Shown here in pieces: positions 28,862-32,957 of a stretch of DNA of 64,000 bases. The notes beneath the pieces were generated by a model. The model saw only the letters and a list, made by a program, of their open reading frames with translations, did not search any database and had not been told where the DNA came from. A program made the translations under genes and the position numbers. Origin of the DNA: Acidimicrobiales bacterium (GTDB lineage: Bacteria; Actinomycetota; Acidimicrobiia; Acidimicrobiales; DATDAH01). The stretch spans positions 1-64,000 of the forward strand of contig JAEUJM010000018.1 in the NCBI GenBank assembly GCA_016794585.1. The letters run 5' to 3'. Within the stretch, counting starts at the first letter, position 1; each line of letters starts with the position of its first letter.

Positions 28862-28886
28862 GACTCCGCGAGAGGAGGTCGGGGCG

Positions 28887-31595
28887 ATGCGCCGGGATCA
28901 CCGAGCCGTTCGCTCACCGCAAGCGGCGCTCCTCGGTGGTGGCCTGGTCCTCGTCCTCGTGGCCGCACTCGTCCTGCCGGCGGGACCGCTGGCCCGGGCG
29001 CTGGACACGGGCACACCCGAAGTGGCCATCAGCGCCGCGTCTGCGTCGCTGGTGTTCGCCTGTGACACCGGATCGGTGCCCATGACCGTGGAGGCTCTGC
29101 TCGAGCCGGGTGAGGTGGTCGACGGCGGCACGGTGACGGTCACCTGGGCGCTCGGCACGCCGGCGGCCGACGAGCTGGGACTCGGTGACCGGATCGCCGT
29201 CTCCTTCCCGGTTCCTGCGGAGGTGTCCACCGTGCCCGCAGTCGACGTGGTGGCGAGTGGCGTCGACGGCACGGCATGGTCCACCGGGGGCGGACGACTG
29301 ACCGTCGACCTCAGCCTGGTCGAGGAGTCCACCTCGGTCGGGGCGACCGTGATGGCGTCGATGGACCTGAGCCCAGGGCTGGCCCCCACCGTGGTGTCCT
29401 TCGGTGCCCCGGAGGAGCTGGTGGTCGGCGGCGCCGCGGTCGGCGGCGACCAACGGTGCGCGCCGGAGGTTCCGGTGCCCTCGCTGGTGCGTGTGGCCGT
29501 GGTCCCGGCGACCCCGCCCACCACGGACACGACGACGCCCACCACGAGCACCACGACGCCGACCACGCCGACGACCCGACCGTGGTCGGCGGTGACGTCC
29601 ACGACGCGGCCGAGTGACCCCGCCGCCGGGGGCGATGCCCCGTCGCCACCGCCCCTCGACCCCGTCGACATCCCCGCGCTGCCGCCGCCACCGGACCCGA
29701 TGGCCGCCAGCCAGGTGGTGACCGGCGGCGTGGGAGGCGCCGCGGCCCGCCTCGACCGCGCCAGCGTGGACCTCACGGCCTCGACCCGGGAGTTGGAGGC
29801 GATGGAGCAGCAGGCGGCCGCGCTCGAGCGACGGGAGCGCCACCTCGCGGCCGAGCGCCGCCGGCTGGCCGCCAAGGTCGACCACCACCGAGACGAGGCG
29901 GAGCGCCTCGCGGCGGCCGCGTACGTGGCCGCCGTCGACGCGTACGTGAGCCTGGCGGCCACCAGCGACGACGTGATCGTGCTCGGCACCGCGCTCGAGC
30001 AGGGCACCTCGACCTACCTGCGGCTGCTCGCGCGCCAGGCCGACGTGGACGCCCAGCTCCGGTCGGTGGCCGCCCGTCGGTCCGACGGGTGGGAGTCGCT
30101 CGATCGGGCCGAGGCCCGCACCCGGACCCTGCGATCCCGGGTGGCGGATGGCGAGCAACTGCTCACCGCCTTCGATCTCGGCGCCGACGTCGCGGTGACG
30201 GGGTTCCGCTTCCCGGTGGGGGGGCCCACGGACTTCAGCGACACGTGGCACGCACCCCGCTCAGGGGGGCGGCTCCACCAGGGCACGGACCTGTTCGCTG
30301 CGGAGGGGACGCCGCTGCGTTCGGTCGAGCGCGGGGTCCTCGCCCGGGTCGGCCACGACACCTTGGGTGGGACCAAGCTCTGGCTCGTCGGTGAGAGCGG
30401 GACGCAGTACTACTACGCCCACCTCAGCGGGTTCGCCCCGGGGGTCACCGACGGGTTGGTCGTCGATGCCGGCGCCGTGATCGGGTACGTCGGCCACACC
30501 GGCAACGCCCGGACGACGCCACCGCACCTGCACTTCGAGGTCCACCCGGGAGGCGGTCCGGCCATCGACGCGTACCCGATGCTCCGGGCCGCGGGCTCGA
30601 CGGTGCGCGACCCCGTGGAGGACCCCTCCTCCGACGGGACCGCACCGTCGGCCTCGTCGACCACGACGACCACCGCCACGACCGCGGCGACGTCGTCGAC
30701 CGCGAGCTCGACCGTCACACCCGGACCGACGGGTCCGGCGAGCGCCCGGCCCGAGGTAGCCGCCGGTTGGGGGGATGCCGGGCAGTTGGTCGAAGGGCTG
30801 GCCCGTCCCACCGCCGTCGCATCGGCCCCGGACGGCACGGTCCTGGTCGCCGATCCCGGAGCCGACCTCATCGTCGTGCTCGACGCCGACGGGTCGATCA
30901 TCCGGTCGTGGGGTGGGGCCGGGAGCACCGACGGCCGTCTCCACGAGCCGCGCGGTCTGGCCGTGGGTCCGGACGGCACCGTCTACGTCGCCGACACAGG
31001 CAACGCCCGGATCCAGCGCTTCACCGGCGAGGGCGAGCTGCTCGCGTCGTGGGACGGCGCCGACACCCCGGAGGGGCCGATGGCCCGACCGGTGGCCGTC
31101 GCAGTCGACGGCGACCAGGTGTACGTCCTGGACTCGCTGAACAGCGAGGTGCGGGTGTTCGACCCCGACGGCGAGCCCGTGCGGACCTGGGGCGGGTTCG
31201 GCGACGATCCCGGACGCTTCGCCGATCCGGTCGGCATCGCCGTCGGGCCCGACGGCGACCTGTACGTGGCCGATCGCTTCAACGGGAGGGTGCAGCGTCT
31301 CACTCCGCAGGGCGAGCCGGTGGCGCAATGGAGCGAAGGCCTGCGCCGACCTGCCGCCGTCGCGGTCACCGCCGAGGGCCTGCTGATCGTCGCCGACCGG
31401 GCGGAAGGGTCCGTGCTGCAGTACGACGCCGGTGGCCACCTGCGGGCGTCCTGGGGCCGTGCGCAGCTCGAGCGTCCCGAGGCGCTCGTCGTCGATCAGA
31501 CAGGACGACTCCTCGTCGCCGACTCAGGATCTGGCCGCCTGCTGGCCTTCCGATGGAACGTCGGCTCCCGCGATCGAGACCCTGCGTCCCGGTGA
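28887..31595 (+). CDS. secreted M23 peptidase fused to an NHL-repeat propeller
   Basis: A 902-residue exported protein with an unusual domain order. Residues 1-38 are a signal segment; about 40-205 is a beta-rich domain; about 210-240 is a Thr/Pro linker; about 285-430 is an alpha-helical coiled coil of the kind found in NlpD/EnvC-like activators; about 440-560 is an M23 metallopeptidase with zinc ligands H464 and D468 (HQGTD) and H547/H549 (HLHFEV). A second Thr/Ser linker leads to about 620-895, a six-bladed NHL-type propeller with repeats such as GPDGTVYVADTGNARIQRF. It should cut peptidoglycan cross-links outside the cell while the propeller binds a partner. It is preceded by leader copy B. 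Confidence 0.85.
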   Translation: MRRDHRAVRSPQAALLGGGLVLVLVAALVLPAGPLARALDTGTPEVAISAASASLVFACDTGSVPMTVEALLEPGEVVDGGTVTVTWALGTPAADELGLGDRIAVSFPVPAEVSTVPAVDVVASGVDGTAWSTGGGRLTVDLSLVEESTSVGATVMASMDLSPGLAPTVVSFGAPEELVVGGAAVGGDQRCAPEVPVPSLVRVAVVPATPPTTDTTTPTTSTTTPTTPTTRPWSAVTSTTRPSDPAAGGDAPSPPPLDPVDIPALPPPPDPMAASQVVTGGVGGAAARLDRASVDLTASTRELEAMEQQAAALERRERHLAAERRRLAAKVDHHRDEAERLAAAAYVAAVDAYVSLAATSDDVIVLGTALEQGTSTYLRLLARQADVDAQLRSVAARRSDGWESLDRAEARTRTLRSRVADGEQLLTAFDLGADVAVTGFRFPVGGPTDFSDTWHAPRSGGRLHQGTDLFAAEGTPLRSVERGVLARVGHDTLGGTKLWLVGESGTQYYYAHLSGFAPGVTDGLVVDAGAVIGYVGHTGNARTTPPHLHFEVHPGGGPAIDAYPMLRAAGSTVRDPVEDPSSDGTAPSASSTTTTTATTAATSSTASSTVTPGPTGPASARPEVAAGWGDAGQLVEGLARPTAVASAPDGTVLVADPGADLIVVLDADGSIIRSWGGAGSTDGRLHEPRGLAVGPDGTVYVADTGNARIQRFTGEGELLASWDGADTPEGPMARPVAVAVDGDQVYVLDSLNSEVRVFDPDGEPVRTWGGFGDDPGRFADPVGIAVGPDGDLYVADRFNGRVQRLTPQGEPVAQWSEGLRRPAAVAVTAEGLLIVADRAEGSVLQYDAGGHLRASWGRAQLERPEALVVDQTGRLLVADSGSGRLLAFRWNVGSRDRDPASR

Positions 31596-31670
31596 CGAGA
31601 CGCCTTCCTCCCAGTCAGTAGGATGAGTCGTTCCGGGACGGGGGTCTCGGGCGGGAGGAGGCGAAATCCA

Positions 31671-32957
31671 TTGGGCATCTCACGACGCACGTTCCTCGCC
31701 GGGAGTGCCGGCGCGGCCGCGCTGGCGGCGCTCGGCGTCTCCGCGTGCGGCTCGTCCGACGAAGGCGGCACCGTCGACCAGTCGACCGCGACGCTGCCCG
31801 ACCCGAGCGATGCCCCCTTCGACACCGTCGTGGTGCTGATGATGGAGAACCGGTCGTTCGACCACATGGTGGGGTGGCTGCCCGGCGCCGACGGCAAGCA
31901 GGCCGGGCTGAGCTACGTCGACCAGAAGGGCGACTCGCACGACACGTACCGACTCGCCCCCGACTGGCAGGGCTGCGACATGCAGGACCCCTTCCACATC
32001 TGGCAGGCGATGAAGTCGCACTACAACGACGGCGCCTGCGACGGGTTCCTGAAGACCCAGCCCAACGGCGACCTCTTCCCCATCGGCTACTACGAGGCCG
32101 AGGACCTGCCCATCCTCGCCGCCCTGATGCAGGGCTACACCGCCTTCGACAAGTACTTCGCGTCGATGCTGGGCCCCACGTGGCCCAACCGGCTCTACCA
32201 GCTCTGCGCCACCACCGACCTGGACGAGACCCTCGACTACCCCGCCCCGGGAGAGCCCCGGCCGGTGAACCTCGACCTCGCCATCTTCGACCGGGTCAAG
32301 GACGCCGGGCTGACCGCGGGCTACTACTACTTCGGTGAGCCGATGACGGGTCTGTTCGCCAGTCAGCGCTACGACGACATCTCGCACCGCATCGAGAAGT
32401 TCTTCCACGATGCCGAGGCGGGGACGCTGCCCAACGTCGTGTTCGTGGACCCGGACTACACGGCGCACGCAGAGTTCAACGGCACGTCCAACGACTACCA
32501 CCCCTACGGCAGCGTCCAGGTGGCCGAGGCCTTCGTGGCCAAGGTGCACGATGCCCTCGCCAACAGCCCCCACTGGGACAAGCTCGTGTTCGTCCTCAAC
32601 TTCGACGAGAGCGGCGGCTTCTACGACCACGTCCCGCCGCCCCGGGTCGAGGACCACACGGTGCTCCCGGGGACGGGCCCCAAGCCCGACCTCAAGCGCC
32701 TCGGCTTCCGCGTGCCTGCGGTCGTGATGGGCCCCTTCGCCAAGCAGCGCCTCGACCAGACCGGCCCCTACGAGCACAGCTCGGTGCTGAAGATGATCGA
32801 GTGGCGCTGGGACCTCGAGCCCATGACGGTGCGCGATCGCAAGGCCAAGAACCTCGCCGACGCGCTCGACTTCTCCATCAAGCGCGACCCCATCACCCTC
32901 CCGGACTTCACCCCCGAGCCCGCCAAGATCTGCCGCAACCCGAACCACGTGGCCTGA
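31671..32957 (+). CDS. Tat-exported phosphoesterase (phospholipase C/acid phosphatase family)
   Basis: A 428-residue enzyme with a twin-arginine signal SRRTFLAGSAG near its start and a following SACGSS that may be lipidated. MMENRSFDHM is the hallmark of the phosphoesterase family (PF04185) that includes mycobacterial phospholipases C and AcpA. FDESGGFYDHVPPP and the late HSSVLKMIEW complete the site. TTG 31671 is preferred: GGGAGGAGG lies 9 bases upstream and it places the twin arginine right after the start, while TAGGAT (31619-31624) would be the -10. ATG 31623 overlaps that hexamer and gives a 16-residue extension. It should hydrolyse phosphoesters outside the membrane. Confidence 0.8.
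   Translation: MGISRRTFLAGSAGAAALAALGVSACGSSDEGGTVDQSTATLPDPSDAPFDTVVVLMMENRSFDHMVGWLPGADGKQAGLSYVDQKGDSHDTYRLAPDWQGCDMQDPFHIWQAMKSHYNDGACDGFLKTQPNGDLFPIGYYEAEDLPILAALMQGYTAFDKYFASMLGPTWPNRLYQLCATTDLDETLDYPAPGEPRPVNLDLAIFDRVKDAGLTAGYYYFGEPMTGLFASQRYDDISHRIEKFFHDAEAGTLPNVVFVDPDYTAHAEFNGTSNDYHPYGSVQVAEAFVAKVHDALANSPHWDKLVFVLNFDESGGFYDHVPPPRVEDHTVLPGTGPKPDLKRLGFRVPAVVMGPFAKQRLDQTGPYEHSSVLKMIEWRWDLEPMTVRDRKAKNLADALDFSIKRDPITLPDFTPEPAKICRNPNHVA

Follow-up and report, generated by a model that had tools for sequence, protein, structure and literature searches.

The gene described here raises the question of whether a single exported protein can truly join an M23 peptidase to an NHL propeller, and what the propeller would contribute. 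The window (the whole stretch of DNA analyzed, 64,000 nucleotides) comes from an Actinomycetota bacterium, and the gene lies intact within it. An earlier note on this DNA had described an exported protein of 902 residues, with a coiled coil, an M23 peptidase carrying H464, D468 and H549, two Thr-rich linkers and about six NHL repeats. Translation gave the same open reading frame, a signal peptide was predicted at its N-terminus, and both linkers were present by composition (one Pro/Thr, the other Thr/Ser). The three peptidase residues were confirmed and six blades were found in the propeller. The features are listed below by window position.

28873..28878, + strand: AGGAGG Shine-Dalgarno sequence, read from the sequence, 8 nt 5' of the ATG
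28887..31595, + strand: whole gene for a 902-aa predicted exported M23 peptidase with an NHL propeller (ORF, translation, Pfam)
28887..29000, + strand: predicted signal peptide, aa 1 to about 38 (hydropathy); likely cleavage ARA|LD, by inspection
29001..29495, + strand: N-terminal domain, aa 39-203, with two Cys residues (by inspection); no convincing match and no counterpart in the paralogue
29496..29702, + strand: Pro/Thr-rich linker 1, aa 204-272 (20 Pro and 18 Thr of 70 residues); the paralogue has a linker too
29733..30176, + strand: predicted coiled-coil region, aa 283-430, aligning with the paralogue and other relatives
30201..30596, + strand: M23 peptidase domain, aa 439-570 (Pfam and alignment with solved M23 structures)
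30612..30758, + strand: Thr/Ser-rich linker 2, aa 576-624 (13 Thr and 10 Ser of 49 residues)
30759..31565, + strand: six-bladed NHL propeller, aa 625-893 (Pfam, AlphaFold2, Foldseek)

The signal peptide suggests that the protein is exported. Its N-terminal segment was the sole strongly hydrophobic one in a hydropathy scan of all 902 residues, which showed no later transmembrane helix. A scan gave neither a sigma-70 promoter nor a terminator. The gene is placed between an SDR gene and a PF04185 phosphoesterase gene, and its neighbors also include an epimerase and an ABC transporter of the ABC2_membrane_3 type.

An unusual architecture could also arise if an assembly or sequencing error had fused two genes, and a second genome with the same joint was not found. 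However, the gene is a single open frame with steady GC3 (0.79-0.97 in every full 100-codon block) and has an interior position in a contig of 214 kb. With the fetched M23 and NHL genes of its own genome it shares no exact repeat longer than 18 bp, and exact sequence common to both linkers reaches at most 9 bp. In addition, the M23 domain and the propeller are each complete, and a distinct gene for a PF04185 phosphoesterase follows at 31623-32957; there was no sign of the frameshift or assembly joint that the earlier note had named as fatal to its reading. An assembler-made joint is unlikely on these observations, and to an error of either kind we assign only the slightest chance.

Pfam placed PF01551 (M23) at aa 463-557 (E 1.5e-18, 67.2 bits against a cut-off of 28.7) and matched PF01436 (NHL) to the C-terminal part (E 2.1e-35, 119.4 bits against a cut-off of 20), with five stretches individually significant; in view of these E-values, neither match is due to chance. 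The M23 signature is complete, comprising HxxxD, the second-shell His and the HxH zinc/catalytic set, such that H512 and H547 are present along with the three residues noted above. Because solved M23 peptidases have these catalytic residues at the aligned positions, the domain looks catalytically competent, and its family suggests peptidoglycan as the substrate.

Blades of the propeller start at residues 640, 687, 734, 780, 821 and 863. The structure prediction that the earlier note had proposed as a check bore out the repeat count: AlphaFold2, given aa 620-902 alone and no alignment, returned a model with a pLDDT of 85.9 and 24 strands, and therefore six four-stranded blades. The propeller is thus modeled as a complete, closed six-bladed fold. 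The best Foldseek match was 6xg7 (E 1.4e-22, TM 0.83), and the top matches were NHL domains (6xg7, TRIM71, TRIM2/3) with TM values of about 0.83. The extracellular domain of PknD was within the top 50 and was matched by sequence as well. Recent amplification of a single blade was considered but not supported: in a comparison of one protein against many, five of the six blades scored higher against some other protein than against any sibling blade, although the excess was only slight for blade 5, and blade 4 tied (117 vs 117).

NHL-like propellers are sometimes catalytic, as in Vgb lyase and PAL, and the protein would be bifunctional if its propeller were an enzyme of the lyase, lactonase or esterase type. 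The SMP-30/gluconolactonase (SGL) profile did pass its Pfam cut-off (49.8 against 26.3) and the Vgb-lyase model gave a weak match. However, the SGL profile is broad and cross-matches other NHL proteins, and only two histidines (686 and 851) occur in the propeller. A Vgb-type enzyme was rejected, with Vgb_lyase at 39.5 against a cut-off of 50 and NCBIfam VgbA/VgbB at 13 bits against 600. We regard an enzymatic propeller as very improbable.

The N-terminal half is less clearly placed. For the domain at aa 39-203, which the earlier note had taken to be beta-rich, a single-sequence model had too low a confidence (pLDDT 42) to bear this out, and no convincing relative of it was present in the fetched loci; this domain, instead of the propeller, could be the real targeting part. 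For the helical region that follows the first linker, the coiled-coil prediction rests only on alignment with M23 relatives, one of which (L016) matches CC_PcsB in Pfam with an E-value of 1.6e-8.

How unusual the protein is was assessed in overlapping genome sets that together held about 1,015 distinct genomes, with chromosomes drawn from Actinomycetota; the loci inspected were part of the matches listed. A coiled coil preceding M23 is common, as the earlier note had supposed, with matches to such a query in 100 of 148 genomes of the order. An M23 query found matches in 267 of 395 genomes of the class, and a stricter rerun did so in 126 of 397 genomes of the order. The NHL query at E 1e-22 found matches in 22 of 396 genomes of the phylum. 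Apart from the window gene, none of the best and long-frame M23 loci read as ORFs had NHL repeats, and none of the 20 loci found by NHL searches and read contained M23. In searches of plasmid (72,556) and phage (50,697) records, none of the places listed covered both domains, and no relative was found in viral contigs. An ortholog of the same architecture was absent from the loci inspected, and in open texts we found no paper that joins an NHL repeat or domain with an M23 peptidase or LytM. The suspicion that M23 with a C-terminal NHL propeller is unusual was thus upheld, since it was seen only here among the loci inspected in a search of about 1,000 genomes. These observations support rarity of the combination in Actinomycetota, not uniqueness. 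Both M23 and NHL are well known; what is new is their combination, seen in one genome.

Other long C-terminal additions to M23 were encountered. In two genomes of one genus in the same order (L083:5230-9669, - strand, G008:C106; L084:9526-13233, + strand, G065:C99), M23 is followed by an extension of about 900 aa in which LVIVD matches stay below threshold, a PA-like stretch is present and units of the form GYWLV..ADGGVFAFGDA recur. This extension is different and possibly of propeller type. In another protein (L092:3666-5663, - strand, G074:C203), M23 is followed by FG-GAP-like repeats and then a GH19 domain, such that peptidase and glycosidase are combined in one exported protein.

With regard to origin, the own-genome relative nearest to the M23 half, among the matches listed, is a gene on contig C47 (G000:C47; 63% identity in M23). 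It aligns with aa 206 to 581 only and thus differs from the window protein in having neither the N-terminal domain nor the propeller. Its neighbors are genes for thiamin pyrophosphokinase (TPK), an SRPBCC protein, a CNNM transporter and an APH-type kinase, and the order TPK-M23-SRPBCC-CNNM is common to a homologous locus in genome G018. Because the set of neighbors is the same, the C47 gene looks like the copy at the ancestral position. In the tree, the two paralogues grouped with the coiled-coil M23 proteins of the order in a clade with support of 97/89, within which exact branching was not resolved. This synteny, together with the lack of both modules in all relatives opened, suggests duplication, then relocation, then addition of modules; the window gene thus appears to be a duplicate that has moved and acquired a module on either side.

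The propeller itself was about equally similar to NHL proteins of its own genome and to foreign ones. An origin from an own-genome NHL gene was not favored, with alignment scores over the whole propeller of at best 394, against 447 for a foreign sulfatase with a C-terminal NHL propeller (L195:1691-4708, + strand, G526:C80), which was the best-scoring propeller relative among the proteins compared.

NHL is a recurrent exported module in this genome, where about nine proteins together gave 59 repeat matches. About eight NHL proteins besides the one studied here were noted (L093, L094, L095, L096, L097, L098 and L099), with lengths of up to about 1,800 aa. Domains found on them include GDSL lipase, carboxypeptidase-regulatory and DUF11/DUF7507 domains, and those read lacked M23. 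Elsewhere in the phylum, NHL was seen fused to a sulfatase and, in another protein, combined with SLH. At E 1e-20, NHL was matched in only 3 of 79 genomes of the order, the window genome included, and the expansion is therefore particular to this lineage within the sample. Because NHL is combined with many different partners and is attached here through a linker, its simplest interpretation is as a part for binding or tethering. Judging from its fold and its recurrence on other exported proteins, binding is the most likely role of the propeller.

On balance, we think it probable, with appreciable room for doubt, that the window gene encodes an active secreted M23 endopeptidase whose propeller is non-catalytic and serves to bind a partner in the envelope, and that it is a relocated duplicate with two added modules. 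The exported zinc endopeptidase would cut cross-links or stem peptides of peptidoglycan. A gene of the order-wide coiled-coil/M23 family would have been duplicated and relocated, and would have gained the N-terminal domain as well as the NHL propeller, the latter via a flexible Thr/Ser linker. The propeller would do no chemistry and would act as a binding module, holding the enzyme at a site or partner in the envelope, such as a wall polymer, a surface protein or another exported protein; the gene neighborhood suggests no particular partner.

The earlier note had offered two roles for the propeller, recruitment of a partner or sensing of a ligand that controls wall cleavage. The first is the likelier half, since recurrent NHL accessories on exported proteins favor simple binding or targeting. 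A regulatory sensor, in which a ligand relieves or imposes inhibition of M23 and cleavage follows a signal, appears unlikely. Its precedents are that the mycobacterial receptor kinase PknD has NHL as its extracellular domain, which was matched here by sequence and fold, and that coiled-coil M23 proteins can be regulated, as PMC7668044 describes for EnvC/FtsX. However, the long and presumably flexible Thr/Ser linker between propeller and peptidase does not suggest tight allostery, no FtsEX or receptor adjoins the gene, and the other own-genome NHL proteins read have no M23.

Alternatively, the enzyme could be aimed at other bacteria, with the propeller binding the surface of the target cell in the manner of the wall-binding part of lysostaphin. 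Lysostaphin-type M23 proteins were among the structural matches, the layout is the same in that a C-terminal binding domain follows a linker, and no membrane anchor was seen in the hydropathy scan. Yet the nearest relatives belong to a conserved chromosomal family found across the order in a housekeeping-like locus, and neither an immunity gene nor a secretion locus adjoins the gene, which makes an outward-aimed enzyme distinctly unlikely.

The gene is an example of how new targeting parts may be gained by a wall hydrolase, through duplication, relocation and addition of modules at both ends. The module-free paralogue at C47 provides a natural control within the same genome. If the propeller steers or gates cleavage, M23 enzymes would have a mode of control that is new and can be tested. 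A signal-responsive wall hydrolase, in which the propeller would bind a soluble or surface ligand and thereby switch or steer M23 activity, is something of a long shot; if true, it would, together with the LVIVD-like/GYWLV and FG-GAP/GH19 M23 proteins, point to a wider habit of placing propellers on wall peptidases.

The closest known counterparts are the coiled-coil/M23 proteins of the order (G000:C47, G079, G029, G012, G018 and others). Signal peptide, Thr/Pro linker, predicted coiled-coil region and the same set of M23 motifs are common to these and the window protein. However, in close relatives no more than about 150 aa come after M23, in most cases only a few residues or a low-complexity tail, and all relatives inspected lack the NHL repeats and the N-terminal domain, both of which the window protein has. 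The predicted succession of coiled coil and M23 also resembles that of the LytM factors EnvC, PcsB and MepM. EnvC has a coiled coil followed by its M23/LytM domain, and EnvC-type factors are linked to FtsEX; to our knowledge, no propeller is known in these three families. Neither ftsE nor ftsX was found among the neighbors of the window gene, which by its neighborhood is not an EnvC-type factor of an FtsEX locus. As a wall hydrolase that would be targeted by a binding part at its C-terminus, the window protein has the familiar layout of lysostaphin. It shares with lysostaphin and zoocin A an M23 endopeptidase that precedes a non-catalytic C-terminal domain; in both of those enzymes, this domain is a small binding fold, unlike the NHL propeller observed here. 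PknD has a C-terminal, six-bladed extracellular NHL propeller, as does the window protein, but it is a membrane kinase, whereas the window protein is a predicted secreted peptidase. The sulfatase-NHL protein (G526, L195) and the NHL-GDSL lipase (L096) resemble it in placing a propeller on a hydrolase with an N-terminal leader-like segment; in these the enzyme differs from M23, and the propeller of L096 is N-terminal.
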